This document shows, piece by piece, positions 3,555-21,993 of a stretch of DNA of 22,862 nt. The stretch spans positions 1 through 22,862 of IMG/VR virus record IMGVR_UViG_3300044701_000323; one strand, 5' to 3'. The notes below the pieces were generated by a model. That model did not search any database and was not told the origin of the DNA. It was given only the letters and a program-made list of their open reading frames with translations. Both the position numbers and the translations under genes were made by a program. The first letter of the stretch is position 1, and each line of letters starts with the position of its first letter. The stretch is from a virus.

Positions 3555-5314
3555 TGGCAGCCATTGTTCCTTATCGTCCTGTAACTAGATCTGCTGGTGG
3601 AGCGTTAACCAAGCAGCAGGATGGTAGTGCCAGATTAAAAAAAACTGTCATCAATATTGAGAAAGTTCTTCAAAAGAAGCGCAAAACTACAAAGAAGTTA
3701 AACGAACAGGAAGTAGCAACTACTAGATTTGCAACAGAGCAGAAAACTAGAACTGCTGCTGAAAGTGCAATGGAAAGTGGATCAACTTTCAGTATGCCAA
3801 TGCTGAAGAAGGTTCCGTCTTTTGCTGTAGATGCATTCTCAAGAATTATGAATTTCTTGGGAATATATCTGATTGGATGGGTTACAGATAAGTTACCAAA
3901 GATCATCAATGCCATCAAAGACTTGAATCAAAGGATTCAAAAGATGGGTCAAATTGTGACCAATATGGCTAACAAGCAGTTGCAGATTGTTACATCAATG
4001 GCAAACTTGATTGCCGCAAAGACAAAGCAAATTGCAACTCTAGATTTTGGCGATAAGAGCGGAGATGTAAAAAGGGCAACTGATCAACTAGATGCAGCAT
4101 ATGATTCTATGCAGCAAGATTATGATATGGCGGCAAAGATCTTTAGTGCTCCGTTGGGATCATTTCCAGTTGGTGATGATCCTGGTACTGGAGGCCCTCC
4201 TTTACCAGGAAATAATTCATTCAGTAAAGAGATTACTGAAGATGAGAGAAAAGCACTTGCCGTATTGGCAAAGTATGAATCTGGTGCTGCTGGTTATAAT
4301 GCTGTAAACCAGATTGGTGTTGCAGGTGGTAGAGGAGTAGTAGGATTTTCTGGTGATATTAGAAGAATGAGACAGCATGGTGGTAGATCCTTGGAGGATA
4401 TGACCATCGGTGAAATCAAAGCCTTGCAGCGAGAAGAAAGAATCACGAATTCTCAATGGATTGCAAAGGGTAAATTACACGCTGTAGGAAGATATCAGTT
4501 TGTTGGTAATACTCTTCCTGGAGTCGCTGCCCGTGCTGGTTTTAGTGATGATACTAAATTCACTAAAGCGGTTCAAGATAAAATGGCAATTCAACTCATC
4601 AAGGAAAGAGGAATCTCTCCTTGGGTTGGCCCTAGCGATAAGGCAAGTGCCGCAGAGAGAGCACTGGTCAGAAAAGTTCAGATGGGTGCTGGTGATGGTA
4701 ACGCTAGAAGAAGTGGCAGTCAAACTCCTGCATATTCACAGGCTGTAAAGGTAGGACGATTTTTGCAAAGTCAAGGATATTATGCATGGCAACATCCAGA
4801 CTTTGCTATTACTCCATACAGTACAACTGGAAAGAGTGGTTATACGGGAACTGGTAGAGAGCGTGTGATGCGTAGAAGTTATAACTCTTACCATAATTAT
4901 GGAGAAGCACTAGATTTTCCATTGTCTCATAATAGCGAAGCAAAAATCAATAAACTTGCAAAATATCTGAAGGACAATAGAAGTTCTCTTGGTATCGCTG
5001 AATTGAAATGGAAAGACGATGCCAATCACTTTGATCACTTGCATGTTTCATTTAAAGGTGGTGGTACTGGATCTTCTCCAGTAATCAGTTCCCCAGATAG
5101 TCCACAGGGAGATCTTTCTCCTTTGCCTGAAGCTCCTCCAGACTTTGATATGGCAAAGTTTGTGAGACTGCTCAAGAAGGGAATGGCGAGACAACAAGCG
5201 CAGCAGAAACAGACTCAAGCACAGACTACGAATACTACCCCTTCTACAGGTGGAATGATGAACCCTGGTGCTCCATTAAATAGTATGTTATTCAATTCAC
5301 TTGCATATCAATGA
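3554..5314 (+). CDS. Tail-associated peptidoglycan hydrolase with lysozyme-like and M15-like domains
   Basis: This 586-aa protein has three parts. Residues 1-150 resemble the start of the preceding protein: charged helices, then FLGIYLIGWVTDKL (101-114). Residues about 230-375 form a lysozyme/transglycosylase-like domain with KYESGAAGYNAVN (Glu242 is the likely catalytic acid) and the motif GRYQFVGNTL (312-321). Residues about 400-500 form a zinc peptidase of the LAS/M15 type: SYHNYGEALDF (445-455) gives His447 and Asp454, and HFDHLHVSF (492-500) gives His495 and His497, matching SxHxxGxAxD plus HxH. A Gln-rich tail ends the protein. Together the domains could cut both glycan and peptide during DNA injection, a job done in T4 by the lysozyme domain inside gp5. 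The gene overlaps its neighbours on both sides (TGATG and ATGA), so the proteins are probably made in fixed ratio. Confidence 0.85.
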   Translation: MAAIVPYRPVTRSAGGALTKQQDGSARLKKTVINIEKVLQKKRKTTKKLNEQEVATTRFATEQKTRTAAESAMESGSTFSMPMLKKVPSFAVDAFSRIMNFLGIYLIGWVTDKLPKIINAIKDLNQRIQKMGQIVTNMANKQLQIVTSMANLIAAKTKQIATLDFGDKSGDVKRATDQLDAAYDSMQQDYDMAAKIFSAPLGSFPVGDDPGTGGPPLPGNNSFSKEITEDERKALAVLAKYESGAAGYNAVNQIGVAGGRGVVGFSGDIRRMRQHGGRSLEDMTIGEIKALQREERITNSQWIAKGKLHAVGRYQFVGNTLPGVAARAGFSDDTKFTKAVQDKMAIQLIKERGISPWVGPSDKASAAERALVRKVQMGAGDGNARRSGSQTPAYSQAVKVGRFLQSQGYYAWQHPDFAITPYSTTGKSGYTGTGRERVMRRSYNSYHNYGEALDFPLSHNSEAKINKLAKYLKDNRSSLGIAELKWKDDANHFDHLHVSFKGGGTGSSPVISSPDSPQGDLSPLPEAPPDFDMAKFVRLLKKGMARQQAQQKQTQAQTTNTTPSTGGMMNPGAPLNSMLFNSLAYQ

Positions 5315-6633
5315 CAGCAGCTCAACAATCAGCATCCTATAAGGTATTGAATATTGAGTCTAATGACAAATCAAAAGTCATTGATATTCGCAATGGTGTT
5401 GTTGGTTTTGCATACTACGAGGATATTTTTTCCCCAACCGTAACTGCAAAATTGATCGTTACTACTTCTGGTGGAGTAGTCAATGGTACAGGATTATATA
5501 ATGGTTTACCTGTTAGAGGTGGAGAAAGAGTTCAGATTTCTATTGATACTAGAAAAGGATCTGGATTAAGATGGGATGATACTACTGAGTATCTTCATGT
5601 TGGAAAAGTTAGTGATGTAGTCGCAACAAACCAAAAAGAAAGATTCACACTTCATTTGGTTTCTAAAGAAGCAATCAAGAACGAGACAAGTAGAGTTTTT
5701 AAAAAATATGAGGGATCAGCCAGAATCTCAGAGAACGTTAAAAAAATTATGTCTGAGGTTATTCAAACGAACCTTCCTTTTGACGTTGATGATACACAAA
5801 ACAAGTATGGGTTTATAGGTAACAGTAGAAAACCATTCACGGTTCTTCAATCTCTTGCTGCCAAGTCTGTATCTGGAAAGACAGAAAAAGATGCATCTGC
5901 TGGATACTTATTCTATCAGACAAAAAGTGGATTTAAATTTAAGTCCATTGATGGATTGATTGCTCAAACTCCAATAGCAGAATTTACATATAGTGATGTT
6001 AACAAGAGTTCTATCAATGAGGACACAAGCAACAACATCTTACAGTATAAAACAATCACAAATACTAATTTGATCGCTAAACTGAGGACTGGTCAGTTTG
6101 CATCATATAGAGTTTATTGGAATCCTCTGACCTGGCAGTTTACCAGCCCAGACATCGGATTGTTTACCAGAGAGGATTATCTTCAGGGAGTTAGAAATCT
6201 CGGTCAGCAGTTTGTATTGCCAGAGGTTGAGAATGCTTATGGTCAGAAAATAAATCTTGGTGAGATTCCATCTCGAATCATCACAGGTGTTCAGGACATT
6301 GGAACACTTGGAGAAAAGAACGATAAGAGTGCTAATGCTGATCCTGGAAAGTATCACTCTCAATCTCTGATGAGATACAACTCACTCTTTACTCAACAGG
6401 TAAAGATGGCTGTCCCTTGTAACACAAATCTAGAGGCAGGACAAATTATTAAATGCATGTTTCCATCTGTTGTCACTAATGCCGAAAAGCAAAATGAACC
6501 AGACCCTGTTCAAAGTGGACTATATATGATTAAGGATCTTTGTCATTATTTTGAAGGACAAAAAGCGATAACATATATGACTCTGGTCCGTGATACAATA
6601 GGACTGTACACACCAAATAATAAGGAAGCATAA
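5311..6633 (+). CDS. 27: Baseplate central hub protein gp27
   Basis: This 440-aa protein begins with a beta-rich region, IDIRNGVVGFAYYEDIFSPT (residues 25-44), followed by GERVQISIDTRKGSG (71-85) and later FTLHLVSKEAI, the pattern of the first tube-like barrel domain in gp27 hub proteins (the VgrG N-terminal type). T4 gp27 has 391 aa. The hub trimer links the tail tube to the gp5 spike, and the gene is followed two positions later by gp5, as expected. Near the C-terminus the segment with GQIIKCMFPS and SGLYMIKDLCHYFEG is typical of the second hub domain. The start ATG overlaps the stop of the hydrolase gene (ATGA). Identification rests on the domain pattern plus context. Confidence 0.75.
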   Translation: MTAAQQSASYKVLNIESNDKSKVIDIRNGVVGFAYYEDIFSPTVTAKLIVTTSGGVVNGTGLYNGLPVRGGERVQISIDTRKGSGLRWDDTTEYLHVGKVSDVVATNQKERFTLHLVSKEAIKNETSRVFKKYEGSARISENVKKIMSEVIQTNLPFDVDDTQNKYGFIGNSRKPFTVLQSLAAKSVSGKTEKDASAGYLFYQTKSGFKFKSIDGLIAQTPIAEFTYSDVNKSSINEDTSNNILQYKTITNTNLIAKLRTGQFASYRVYWNPLTWQFTSPDIGLFTREDYLQGVRNLGQQFVLPEVENAYGQKINLGEIPSRIITGVQDIGTLGEKNDKSANADPGKYHSQSLMRYNSLFTQQVKMAVPCNTNLEAGQIIKCMFPSVVTNAEKQNEPDPVQSGLYMIKDLCHYFEGQKAITYMTLVRDTIGLYTPNNKEA

Positions 6634-6846
6634 ATGGAAAATATTGAAGCACATATTGAACAGGATAAAAGAATCCTGGACGATCCTACCATTTCCCCAC
6701 AGATGCGTCGTCATACTGAAGGAGAATTGAAAGAACTGGAAGCATATCAAGCTAATCACCCAGAGGATCATCATGATCCTACCTCTCTGGAATTATATTG
6801 CGATGCAAATCCAGATGCACCCGAATGTTTAGTTTACGACGACTGA
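6634..6846 (+). CDS. Short CP12-like protein (C-terminal GAPDH-binding tail)
   Basis: This 70-aa protein ends in SLELYCDANPDAPECLVYDD (residues 51-70), which matches the C-terminal tail of CP12: two cysteines nine residues apart (Cys56 and Cys65) followed by a YDD end. In CP12 this redox-controlled loop binds glyceraldehyde-3-phosphate dehydrogenase. The rest is shorter than in canonical CP12. There is no N-terminal cysteine pair and no clear AWDAVEEL core; only GELKELEAYQANH (30-42) recalls it. Phage CP12 is known to shut down the Calvin cycle and favour the pentose phosphate pathway. Here the PRK-binding half seems lost, so binding to GAPDH alone is an inference. The start is supported by AAGGA at 6622-6626, seven bases before the ATG, directly after the gp27 stop. 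A structural role cannot be excluded given the position between gp27 and gp5. Confidence 0.7.
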   Translation: MENIEAHIEQDKRILDDPTISPQMRRHTEGELKELEAYQANHPEDHHDPTSLELYCDANPDAPECLVYDD

Positions 6847-6851
6847 TATAA

Positions 6852-8996
6852 ATGTCTTTAGAGGAGTTTGGAAGTTTACAAACTAATTTCGTCGGTAGAG
6901 ACGGGTTCCGCTGGTGGATCGGTCAGGTAGCCCCTGGCGAGATCAGAGACACCTGGGGCAATAGAGTCCGTGTGAGAATCATGGGCTATCATCCCTTCAG
7001 TGAAGAGGAACTGCCCAATGATAAACTTCCTTACGCCAATATCCTCTTAGGAACTACATCTGGTAGTGGTGGTGCTGGTAACTATTCCAGTCATACACTT
7101 CGACCTGGTGATGTAGTATTTGGATTCTTCTTAGACGGTGATAATGCACAATTACCGTGCATTAATGGTGTCTTTGGTAGAACAGACGAGGTTACCAAAC
7201 TAGCATCTGCTAAGTATAAGTCACCTTTCCTGCCTTACAGCGGAAAGACTGACAAGATGAAGCCTGCTCACAACAGGATTGCAGATAAAGCAACCGAAGT
7301 TAAAAACGGTGCTGATCCTAAAACAGCATCTGATCCATCTGAAACTGGAGAACAAGGAACTGCTTCTCCTAAGACTCCCACGAATACAAAAAAGGGAACA
7401 GATGGAGTAGAGGCTGATAACAGAGCAAATGGCACTTGTGTAAAACTTGCTGATGCATGTAAGGATAACCCTCTGGCAGAACTGACTGATGTTCTGGATA
7501 ATCTTGTAAACAAACTAAGCAAGATTACTGGTGCACTAAGCAATATCCAGAAAGAAATCAATAAGGTTCTGAATCTAATCCAAGACATTGGTGGTAATTT
7601 TGTTCAGAGTGCCATTGGTGCTCTGTTCGGTGGATTAGAGAACATATTAGCAGATGGATTGGATGCTCTATTCAATTCAGTGTTTGCCTCTACGATGGTA
7701 GCGACTGCTGGAAATGTTCCTCTGTCAACTGCTGCTGGTATTGCTGCTCAAGCGGCTCAAATACCCATCATTGAGAAGTTTCAAGACACTCTTCAGTGTG
7801 TTGGTAATAAGATCGTTGAGGGTTTGAAAGAGGCAGCAAGAGGACTCTTAGAGTCTTTTGTTGGTAACATTCTTGATGTAACTCAGTGTGCTGTTGAAGC
7901 ATACGCTGGTAGTTTCCTCGCTGACATTGTAAAACAAATTTCTGATGGTTTAGCAGGGCCACTTCAAACTTTAAATAAAATTCTTGGCCCTGCATTTACT
8001 GTTATCGGATTCTTACAAGGAACTGCTGGAGCATTTCAATCGATTCTTTCTTTCCTTGATTGTGGTCAGGGTGCAGCATGTGCCGAGATTAAGAAGTGGT
8101 GCATTGGAACTGGGCCCGAGAAAGCAAAGGATGATGATGAGAAGAGTACAAAGAAACAAGGTGAGAGAGAAGCAAACGGAGAACCTGCATCTGGTGAGAA
8201 AGAAGAACCAAGCATGTTCGATAAGGTCATGGATAAACTTGGATCGTTCAATCTCGGAACAGAGAATGTATCTTCCGAAGGACTACTTCAGGGTCTTACA
8301 AACAATCCAAATCTGAACATTCGTCAAAGTCAAGGATGCTACACTGGAGATCCAGCTGCACTTCCTTGTGGAAAACCACAGGTAGAGTTTATCGGTGGTG
8401 GTGGATTCGGTGCTCTTGCCAAAGCATTTGTTGGTAATGTCATCAACGAGACAGAAGGACTTGGTGATGTTGTGAATCAAACAGTTGATGCTGCTAATCA
8501 ACTGGGGGGAATTATTGGATTCCAAATTGAGAATCCTGGTCAAGGATATGTTTATCCTCCAATCGTAAAGATTAATGATCAATGTAAGAGAGGATATGGA
8601 TGTATTGCTAGAGCAACACTAAACTCTAGTGGTGGTATTCAATCCATTCATGTTGTCGATCCTGGTGAGGGTTATCCTCTCGATCCAGAACAAGCAGTCA
8701 TTGCTGTTACTCAAGTTACTGTTGTAAATGGTGGCATTGGGTATGACGAAGACACAGTAGTTACAGACGATCTAGGTAACAACTATAACGTTGTCATTGA
8801 AGATGGCGTTATCAGAGAAGTAGAACCTCTCAGTGTCAATTCGATCAGAACTATTCCTACACTAATTGTTGATGGTAATGGTAGTGGTGCAAACTTAGCA
8901 CCTGTTATTAGTGATATAATTATAGATGGTACAGGAGAAATTCTGTACGTCAAGGATTGTGTTGGTTCACCTTTTGAGGTACTGAGAGTTCAATAA
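6852..8996 (+). CDS. 5: Baseplate spike protein gp5 (OB-fold), without lysozyme domain
   Basis: This 714-aa protein starts with the gp5/VgrG OB-fold: WWIGQVAPGEIRD, then GNRVRVRIMGYHPFSEEELP (about residues 36-55), LPYANILLGTT and GDVVFGFFLDGDNAQLPCIN, closely following the start of T4 gp5, which reads VRVRVVGLHP. The T4 lysozyme domain should follow, but instead residues about 215-420 are a hydrophobic, mostly helical region with Ala, Gly and Leu, preceded and followed by charged low-complexity linkers. The last 150 residues are beta-rich with repeats of the form NPGQGYVYPPIVKI and DPGEGYPLDPEQAVI. No lysozyme motif is visible. The beta-helix needle is encoded by the next gene, which overlaps it (TAATG). 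The protein should sit on the gp27 trimer at the centre of the baseplate. Confidence 0.85.
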   Translation: MSLEEFGSLQTNFVGRDGFRWWIGQVAPGEIRDTWGNRVRVRIMGYHPFSEEELPNDKLPYANILLGTTSGSGGAGNYSSHTLRPGDVVFGFFLDGDNAQLPCINGVFGRTDEVTKLASAKYKSPFLPYSGKTDKMKPAHNRIADKATEVKNGADPKTASDPSETGEQGTASPKTPTNTKKGTDGVEADNRANGTCVKLADACKDNPLAELTDVLDNLVNKLSKITGALSNIQKEINKVLNLIQDIGGNFVQSAIGALFGGLENILADGLDALFNSVFASTMVATAGNVPLSTAAGIAAQAAQIPIIEKFQDTLQCVGNKIVEGLKEAARGLLESFVGNILDVTQCAVEAYAGSFLADIVKQISDGLAGPLQTLNKILGPAFTVIGFLQGTAGAFQSILSFLDCGQGAACAEIKKWCIGTGPEKAKDDDEKSTKKQGEREANGEPASGEKEEPSMFDKVMDKLGSFNLGTENVSSEGLLQGLTNNPNLNIRQSQGCYTGDPAALPCGKPQVEFIGGGGFGALAKAFVGNVINETEGLGDVVNQTVDAANQLGGIIGFQIENPGQGYVYPPIVKINDQCKRGYGCIARATLNSSGGIQSIHVVDPGEGYPLDPEQAVIAVTQVTVVNGGIGYDEDTVVTDDLGNNYNVVIEDGVIREVEPLSVNSIRTIPTLIVDGNGSGANLAPVISDIIIDGTGEILYVKDCVGSPFEVLRVQ

Positions 8997-9526
8997 TGTC
9001 TAACAAAGAAAGAAGGATCATTGCCAATAAAGGGCCAAACTATAAACAAGACATCAACAATCCTCAACCTGGTGGATTTGGTCCAGAAGTTGCCAAGGTT
9101 ATGGCTATCACCGATGAAGGTGAGGTCTTTATTCATTCATTATCTCAGGATGGTACTGTAAGAATCGTCGTTGATAAAACGATGGAAGTTACTGCTGGCG
9201 AAGATAATGATGTGGGCAAGATTGATATGGTTGTTAACTGCATGAACGGAGACATCTGCATCAACGCAATCTCTGGTCAGGTTAGAATCAAAGGTAGAGA
9301 TGTTGTTCTGGAAGCCTCTAGGGATCTAACTCTTAAAGCAGGTAGAAATCTAAATCTTAGAGGTAAAGCCAAAGTAGACATTGATAGCAACAAAGTTCAG
9401 GCAACTGGAAAGTCTGGAAACATCATTCAATCGATGCAACAAACATTTGTACAAAAGATTGCTGCTACAACTAAACTTGGGCCTGGAATTCTGTTGAAAA
9501 TTGGAAAATCACTCATCAGCAGATAA
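8996..9526 (+). CDS. Beta-helix needle protein (counterpart of gp5 C-terminal spike)
   Basis: This 176-aa protein is dominated by short alternating repeats such as GDICINAISGQVRIKGRD, then VVLEASRDLTLKAGRNLNLR and GKAKVDIDSNKVQ (about residues 80-135). This is the pattern of the triple-stranded beta-helix that forms the tip of T4 gp5 and of VgrG spikes. The N-terminal 40 residues are polar and include NNPQPGGFGPEVAKV. There is no PAAR motif, so a separate tip protein may exist elsewhere. The start codon overlaps the stop of the OB-fold gp5 gene, so the two halves of a T4-like gp5 are probably translated together and joined in the particle. Known family: spike/needle repeats; joining of the two proteins is inferred. 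Confidence 0.75.
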   Translation: MSNKERRIIANKGPNYKQDINNPQPGGFGPEVAKVMAITDEGEVFIHSLSQDGTVRIVVDKTMEVTAGEDNDVGKIDMVVNCMNGDICINAISGQVRIKGRDVVLEASRDLTLKAGRNLNLRGKAKVDIDSNKVQATGKSGNIIQSMQQTFVQKIAATTKLGPGILLKIGKSLISR

Positions 9527-20879: not shown

Positions 20880-20936
20880 ATGCTATCGTTACCTCAATTT
20901 TCTGTTACCAATGATCCCTGCACTTTTTCCTGCTAA
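20880..20936 (+). CDS. Possible 18-codon leader ORF overlapping the DUF262-like start
   Basis: An ATG at 20880 opens MLSLPQFSVTNDPCTFSC and stops at TAA (20934-20936), overlapping the start of the next gene in another frame. It has a purine-rich stretch GGGAGAGA upstream, whereas the main ATG at 20911 has no Shine-Dalgarno sequence. It could couple translation, or supply the N-terminus by a +1 shift at GAT CCC TGC. Confidence 0.35.
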   Translation: MLSLPQFSVTNDPCTFSC

Positions 20937-21993
20937 AAAGGATCCTCAACTGCTTCAGTTGCAGTTCCTGATTCAGCAGTTTGATATGACTGAAGCACCT
21001 GAATGGGTGCAACGTCCAGTGGCCTGGAACGACAAAGATCGTAAGGCTTTCTTTAAGTCCATTCTGATGAACCGCACAGAAGGTTCATTTGTGTTTGTTG
21101 ACCTTTATACCTCTATTGAAGCACTTCGGAATAGTGCTCCTGGAGACCGAGCACTTCCTATATTTGAGGAAATGCTTTCTCGGGCTAACTACCTTACCCT
21201 GGATGGAAACAACCGCTACCGTTTTATCCGTGACCTTATTGAAGGAAACTACAAGATTCCTAAGGATGTCTATCAGGTACTGGTGAACGATGCAGTAGTT
21301 GAGTTCGCTGTTGGTTCTAAGCAATCTTTTGATGATCTGCCTACTTTTGTGCAGAAACTCATCAAAGAGCGTATCTGTGTTGCTGTTACCTATACTCAGG
21401 TAACTTATGAAGATCTCCCACAAATCTTCCTGAACCTGAATAGTGGTTGCCCTCTCAATCGTCAAGAGAAGCGCAATGCTTTCTGCACTCCCTGGTCTGA
21501 TTGGATTCGCCAAATGCGGAAAGAGAATACTCCTCTTCTGCACCGTCTCTTCGGCCCTGACTATAAAAAGCGTCTGGTTGGAGATGAGTTCCTCGTGGAT
21601 GCAGTTGGTTACTCTTTGGTGACTGATGATACCCTGGGTGGTGTATCTCAAGGAGTCAAAGACAAACTCTACTACACTGACATCAACGACATTGATACCA
21701 CTCAGTATTCTGTTTGGTTTGATGAGATTAACTCTCTCGTTGCTGGACTTGATGACAAATATGTCTCCAAGTCTGCTGTCCATAACTACTTCTGGATGCT
21801 GGCAAACGGCCTCACAGTTGACAAACTTCCTGCCGCTGTACTTCTTCACCACGAAGCGTACAATGACAAGTCTGTCACGAATGATGAAGGTGATACCTTC
21901 AAGTGGGCATGTGGTGGCATGGGTGCTAAGAACAACCAACTTCGCATTCAAGTCCTGCAGGAGATCATGGAGGCAGTCACTGCCCTCGTGTGA
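20911..21993 (+). CDS. DUF262-like (ParB/GmrS-type fold) protein
   Basis: This 360-aa protein shows the three landmarks of DUF262 N-terminal domains: VQRPVAWNDKDRKAFFKSIL (residues 33-52; usual form YQRPYxW...SIL), LDGNNRYRFIRDLI (97-110; usual form DGQQRLTTI) and IFLNLNSGCPLNRQEKRNA (172-190; usual form FxxLNxGxPLNxQExRNA). Known DUF262 proteins such as GmrS and BrxU bind nucleotides and cut DNA with a partner domain; no DUF1524 HNH motif is visible in the C-terminal half here. The central DGQQR is altered to DGNNR. A role in host takeover or against host defence is possible but unproven. The start has no Shine-Dalgarno sequence. The gene has its own promoter and terminator and uses only CGN arginine codons. 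Confidence 0.7.
   Translation: MIPALFPAKKDPQLLQLQFLIQQFDMTEAPEWVQRPVAWNDKDRKAFFKSILMNRTEGSFVFVDLYTSIEALRNSAPGDRALPIFEEMLSRANYLTLDGNNRYRFIRDLIEGNYKIPKDVYQVLVNDAVVEFAVGSKQSFDDLPTFVQKLIKERICVAVTYTQVTYEDLPQIFLNLNSGCPLNRQEKRNAFCTPWSDWIRQMRKENTPLLHRLFGPDYKKRLVGDEFLVDAVGYSLVTDDTLGGVSQGVKDKLYYTDINDIDTTQYSVWFDEINSLVAGLDDKYVSKSAVHNYFWMLANGLTVDKLPAAVLLHHEAYNDKSVTNDEGDTFKWACGGMGAKNNQLRIQVLQEIMEAVTALV

Follow-up and report, generated by a model that had tools for sequence, protein, structure and literature searches.

A short, host-like cp12 gene between two baseplate hub genes of a probable T4-like cyanophage

The cp12 locus and its neighbours

The window analysed here, a complete IMG/VR record of 22,862 bases, carries on its plus strand a small open reading frame wedged between two baseplate hub genes. 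The features of this locus are:

5276..5282, plus strand: TTAAATA, a late-promoter-like motif (motif scan), 35 nt upstream of the gp27-like ORF and the nearest such motif upstream of cp12
5311..6633, plus strand: ORF for a gp27-like baseplate hub protein (phrog_350 and fold match), whose stop abuts the cp12 ATG (0 nt gap)
6622..6628, plus strand: AAGGAAG, a putative ribosome-binding-site-like stretch 5' of the cp12 ATG, judged from the letters
6634..6846, plus strand: cp12, 70 aa, cyanophage CP12 (phrog_627; Pfam PF02672), from the ORF and profile matches
6852..8996, plus strand: gp5-like baseplate hub and tail lysozyme gene (phrog_1922), starting 5 nt past the cp12 stop

The preliminary description of this DNA had placed the small gene between gp27 and gp5, and this position is confirmed. 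For the upstream ORF the PHROG match is to a family of tail proteins (phrog_350, E 1e-105); searching the PDB with a sequence profile of its product gave only a P1 baseplate protein (E 0.083), and it was the fold search that settled the identity. Its AlphaFold model (mean pLDDT 75) superimposes on T4 gp27 (1k28_D) with a VIA Z of 26.3 over 333 residues (rmsd 3.7), Foldseek gives E 4e-16 for the same pair, and the protein thus has the gp27 hub fold. The downstream ORF matches the PHROG "baseplate hub subunit and tail lysozyme" (E 1e-115).

The same slot is occupied in many relatives, as the preliminary description had proposed to check. Among 86 phage loci (the best 80 of 574 confirmed IMG/VR loci plus 6 from GenBank), 58 have a gp27-like gene upstream and a gp5-like gene downstream of cp12; 47 of these 58 are tight, the gaps on either side being no longer than 100 nt, and the other 11 contain inserts. 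One or both flanks are lacking in the remaining 28, some of which end at a contig border, and in others the neighbours have presumably diverged too far for the search. Elsewhere the gene is placed differently: in P-HM1 it lies beside talC, in Syn9 and Syn19 it is separated from gp5 by genes that include cpeT and a tRNA, and in S-H25 likewise by other genes. A 2010 paper already located talC and cp12 close to psbA or close to gp5 (PMC3037559).

Two further ORFs of the window deserve mention. The one at 10579-11277 matches the Pfam ferredoxin-dependent bilin reductase family PF05996 (65 bits, cut-off 31) and represents a second auxiliary metabolic gene amid the structural genes. The one at 20911-21993 has a weak GmrSD_N-type match, at 27.8 bits below the cut-off of 33.2.

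Identity of the cp12 product

The cp12 ORF starts with ATG and encodes 70 residues with exactly two cysteines, C56 and C65, with P60 in between, and the C-terminus VYDD; the tail thus follows the cyanophage CP12 pattern CxxxPxxxxC with an acidic YDD/YED end. Pfam CP12 is matched over profile positions 3-70 of 70 at 54.3 bits (curated cut-off 22.7), and residues 1-70 match phrog_627 over the whole of its profile (1-75 of 75, E 8.5e-35). The preliminary description was therefore right about the CP12-type C-terminus with its Cys pair and YDD end, and equally about what is absent: there is no Cys before position 56, no Trp and no AWD core. Counted by eye from the alignment, 12 of 16 tail residues are identical to the CP12 peptide of 3b1j. 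It is more than a chance ORF, since the Pfam score exceeds the cut-off and its relatives are under purifying selection (mean pN/pS 0.26 among 36 distinct 70-aa relatives, a rough value with synonymous sites nearly saturated).

With a loose E limit of 10, tblastn found matches in 377 GenBank phage records, and in 362 the match spans at least 80% of the query; almost all come from Synechococcus or Prochlorococcus phages, with a few tail-only or doubtful matches at the weak end. Many of these records already carry the annotation "CP12" or "carbon metabolic regulator", and CP12 is annotated in P-HM1, Syn19, P-SSM7, P-RSM4 and S-SSM7. A 2010 comparison reported CP12 in 15 of 16 cyanomyoviruses (PMC3037559); PMC7238727 makes no mention of cp12. 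By its sequence, the gene of the window is the standard cp12 auxiliary metabolic gene of T4-like cyanophages, already known and in an already known place.

At the structural level, an AlphaFold model built from 26 phage and host rows has a mean pLDDT of 92, dropping to 73 over the last ten residues. Its helices (4-16, 22-41, 51-58 and 63-69) form an N-terminal helical hairpin followed by tail helices. A sequence profile of 31 phage and host sequences, all 31 of which match PF02672, aligns with the solved full-length cyanobacterial CP12 6gfo over residues 1-70 (E 1.6e-8), and 6gfo is also the best Foldseek match of the model (E 0.026, probability 0.92). VIA-align gives Z 4.5 over 57 residues (rmsd 5.2) against 6gfo and up to 5.2 against unrelated helical hairpins, so that the fold match alone is not specific.

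Is a half missing?

The preliminary description read the protein as a CP12 tail without the PRK-binding half. We find instead that the N-terminal part is present and conserved: its approximately 45 residues are kept from phage to phage and can be aligned with the corresponding part of host CP12, and pN/pS is 0.30 for residues 1-43 and 0.20 for the tail (residues 44-70), both ratios being rough with synonymous sites near saturation. We compared 72 distinct phage sequences, the window included, with 58 distinct picocyanobacterial sequences, the IMG/VR loci listed being the best 80 of 574 confirmed and the genome loci the best 80 of 310. For this alignment and for the tree, host proteins of more than 80 aa were shortened at their N end; seven genome loci (L009-L012, L016, L018, L021) whose sequence looked phage-like were kept out of the host group before counting. 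P-SSM2 (L007) was left out of the alignment, gene-order, promoter and tree counts, and RB11-B (L008) was not recovered by tblastn.

Among the matches listed, all 130 aligned phage and host proteins have exactly two Cys and no Trp. The two groups share motifs from end to end: an N-terminal I-x-x-H-I-x-x-D, then R-H followed by E-L-x-x-L-x-x-Y, and the tail C-x-x-x-P-x-x-x-E-C. Relatives lacking the Cys pair, which the preliminary description had named as evidence against it, did not appear: both tail Cys are kept in all 72 distinct phage sequences listed, with a YDD or YED end in 71, and one of the two search patterns used to gather the IMG/VR loci included the CP12 tail. A 5-residue insert directly precedes the DHHDP segment in 32 of the same 72.

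The short form is also that of the hosts. It accounts for 14 of the 15 CP12 matches in ten host genomes, among which each of four Prochlorococcus genomes has one match; the fifteenth is a tail-only protein from a Synechococcus single-cell genome (L183), by eye of the phrog_2603 type. Because these 14 matches and the 58 host sequences all have it, the form without N-terminal Cys is the host type. The idea of a truncated CP12 can accordingly be rejected, and the inference of a missing half arose from comparison with canonical plant-type CP12 rather than with the host form. The comparison with a full-length phage CP12 that had been envisaged found no partner, there being one CP12 match, and no longer version, in each of eight phage records searched; as far as these records go, the idea that the phages encode a longer CP12 at another place is rejected as well. 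Departures of cyanophage and some cyanobacterial CP12 from the canonical features have been described (PMC3906501), and a review credits the phage protein with a CP12-like C-terminal extension (PMC9406205).

A real CP12 tail without the other half does exist, in a separate tail-only group formed by P-SSM2 (L007 2809-3075), RB11-B (L008 3875-4075) and the Synechococcus single-cell genome mentioned above.

Phage and host CP12 histories

A branch with 100/100 support divides the 137-row tree into all 58 host rows on the one hand and, on the other, all 72 phage rows together with 7 phage-like contigs filed in cellular genomes. The tree is built on 72 columns, its inner order is not resolved and its root position is not fixed. 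Among the matches listed, the phage rows are marked by P18 (70 of 72), P22 (69 of 72) and RRH (72 of 72), and they lack a 2-residue insertion of the hosts. A single old transfer between phage and host would fit this pattern best.

Cyanophage-type cp12 of the phage clade was also seen on contigs (L009-L012, L018, L021) filed in public MAGs as Euryarchaeota archaeon, Anaerolineales and Rhodopirellula. These are probably misbinned phage contigs.

Promoters and timing of expression

The late promoter of cyanophage S-PM2 is NATAAATA (PMC2984593). The plus strand of the window has six [ACT]TAAATA sites, four of which (914, 5276, 11274 and 16470) stand 27-37 nt before structural ORFs starting at 948, 5311, 11311 and 16497. 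A fifth, at 1719, precedes by about 30 nt a small ORF near 1748 in the position of gp51, and the sixth lies inside gp5; the whole minus strand has only one TAAATA. No [ACT]TAAATA occurs on the plus strand close before cp12 or gp5, and within the hub gene cluster there is no room before cp12 for a promoter of its own. A TATAAAT at 6847 was considered as a gp5 promoter and rejected: it runs into the gp5 ATG, and a start downstream of it would presumably fall inside gp5. A sigma-70-type scan of 5200-9000 gave no signal, with 6 promoter-like sites against 9.4 in shuffles. Since there is a motif before the gp27-like gene and none close before cp12, the latter is predicted to be read as second cistron from a transcript that begins ahead of the gp27-like gene. 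From this promoter anatomy, late expression of cp12 is plausible.

In the wider sample, 42 of the 76 distinct loci listed have an [ACT]TAAATA in the 80 nt upstream of cp12, compared with 112 of 2988 random windows from the same loci, a comparison whose p-values count related loci as independent. The cp12 gene of P-HM1 also has an ATAAATA upstream, and in P-HM2, a close relative, cp12 belongs to the middle genes and is among the phage's most highly expressed genes in the light (PMC5082946). Together these two observations argue against a firm "late"; cyanophage middle transcription may use early plus late promoters (PMC2984593). Judged by these promoters, cp12 is predicted to be timed differently in phages that have it locked into the hub cluster and in those that have it beside talC.

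Function and alternative readings

In the accepted model, phage CP12 acts as an inhibitor of GAPDH and of the Calvin cycle and promotes the pentose phosphate pathway (PMC5082946, PMC3906501). It counts among the means by which viruses are believed to shut off carbon fixation in the most abundant phototrophs of the sea. For the protein of the window, the most likely function is likewise the inhibition of host GAPDH, and perhaps of PRK, steering carbon to the pentose phosphate pathway. Translated from a transcript carrying gp27 and gp5, it would bind the active site of host GAPDH with its C-terminal loop, C56 and C65 being oxidised, while the N-terminal hairpin may hold PRK weakly. Solved CP12 tails sit in the GAPDH active site. 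With the Calvin cycle halted, carbon would pass through the pentose phosphate pathway and provide NADPH and pentoses for phage DNA synthesis. Host CO2 fixation is reported to stop about 2 h earlier with S-RSM4, which shares the gene order of the window, than with S-PM2, which lacks cp12, talC, gnd and zwf (PMC10665884, PMC10452541); this contrast is a correlation only, and it is confounded by talC, gnd and zwf. No binding test of purified phage CP12 was found in the parts of the phage CP12 literature available to us.

Of the two readings offered by the preliminary description, one was a minimal, late-acting inhibitor of GAPDH alone, that is, a CP12 that had lost its PRK-binding half and worked under the hub gene promoter. 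The absence of the AWD core and N-terminal Cys speaks for it, as does, for the timing, the promoter motif before the gp27-like gene rather than before cp12. Nevertheless, the protein does have an N-terminal half, which is conserved and folds into a helical hairpin in the model, the picocyanobacterial hosts have the same form, and the middle expression of cp12 in P-HM2 does not suit a strictly late role. Moreover, the CP12 of S. elongatus PCC7942, which has no N-terminal Cys pair, still forms a ternary complex with PRK (PMC9406205), so that action on GAPDH alone cannot be concluded from the missing Cys. A CP12 mutant without the N-terminal disulphide binds PRK poorly (PMC9406205), and it is the helical hairpin of CP12 that holds PRK in the Thermosynechococcus complex (PMC11257934). 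PRK binding is doubtful because the AWD core, which contacts PRK, is absent, and this is a stronger argument for weak binding than the missing Cys. All told, we consider the GAPDH-only inhibitor unlikely; the CP12 family identity and the predicted inhibition of GAPDH stand, whereas "minimal" does not, as hosts share the form and the model keeps the hairpin.

The other reading, a virion (baseplate) protein with a borrowed CP12 tail, draws on nothing beyond the place of the gene between two hub genes, and it is highly improbable. The whole protein, not the tail alone, is CP12, as the end-to-end Pfam and 6gfo matches indicate; the gene is also found outside the hub cluster, as in P-HM1, where it adjoins talC, and is separated from gp5 in Syn9, Syn19 and S-H25; and CP12 is not named in what the main text of PMC3037559 says of the 41-protein S-SM1 virion proteome. 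A somewhat probable account of the location, compatible with our preferred one, is that cp12 is a passenger in a region near gp5 that takes up genes, unrelated in function to the hub genes around it. Such an insertion hot-spot with tRNAs has been published (PMC3037559), and the inserts in 11 of the 58 two-flank loci and the varied places of cp12 agree with it. Yet the 47 tight loci (again from the best 80 of 574 IMG/VR loci and 6 from GenBank) show the slot to be stable in many lineages, and a passenger leaves the function unexplained.

A more speculative proposal concerns the N-terminal turn found only in phages (P18, P22, RRH and two residues shorter than in hosts), which sits in a confidently predicted hairpin. 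Remodelled and free of disulphides, it might clamp PRK or some other enzyme of the host and so shut the Calvin cycle in the light, and in lineages such as the present one it might be coupled to the late transcript of the hub genes. Quite unlikely as this seems, phage CP12 would then hold the Calvin cycle shut in the light where host CP12 would let go, and the link to the hub transcript would keep carbon fixation off until lysis.

The best explanation as a whole, to which we assign a probability of about 0.88, is that this is the cp12 of a T4-like cyanophage, of the short, host-like form, that would be expressed from a gp27/gp5 transcript and would inhibit host GAPDH. The finding itself adds little, since gene and place were already known. 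What follows from it is that the short CP12 of the hosts, and not plant CP12, is the proper reference for phage CP12, and by that measure the phage protein is not truncated.

Comparison with known systems

Set against canonical CP12-N/C of plants and Thermosynechococcus (6gfo, 6gve), the protein of the window agrees in the full-length profile match and the tail, and differs by lacking the N-terminal Cys pair and the AWD_VEEL core that mark that class. The tail-only CP12-like proteins of phrog_2603 (P-SSM2 T4-GC 63 and RB11-B type) share the tail with its Cys pair and have a different N-terminal part, and the match of the window protein to phrog_2603 covers only residues 40-70; we infer from sequence that the P-SSM2 and RB11-B proteins belong to this PHROG. 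Much nearer is the CP12 of the hosts (Prochlorococcus, Synechococcus, Cyanobium and Vulcanococcus), approximately 50-59% identical over the full length and of the same architecture, with two Cys, no Trp and a YDD end. This short form is class CP12-C in PMC3906501, after Stanley 2013, and the window protein conforms to it in having the C-terminal Cys pair alone with a homologous N-terminal part. Hosts differ in A18, G22 and a turn two residues longer, where phages have P18, P22 and the invariant RRH. The closest system is cyanophage CP12 itself (T4-GC 337; phrog_627), for example S-H25 QIN97220, S-RSM4 CAR63423 and P-HM1 YP_004322651, with the same length class (70-76 aa), the same Cys pair and end, and, across five phage records, full-length identities of 64-84%. 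Nothing substantial distinguishes the cp12 of the window from that of these phages except the 0 nt gap to the gp27-like gene and the lack of a late-type motif of its own, and S-RSM4 and DSL-LC02 have the same gene order.
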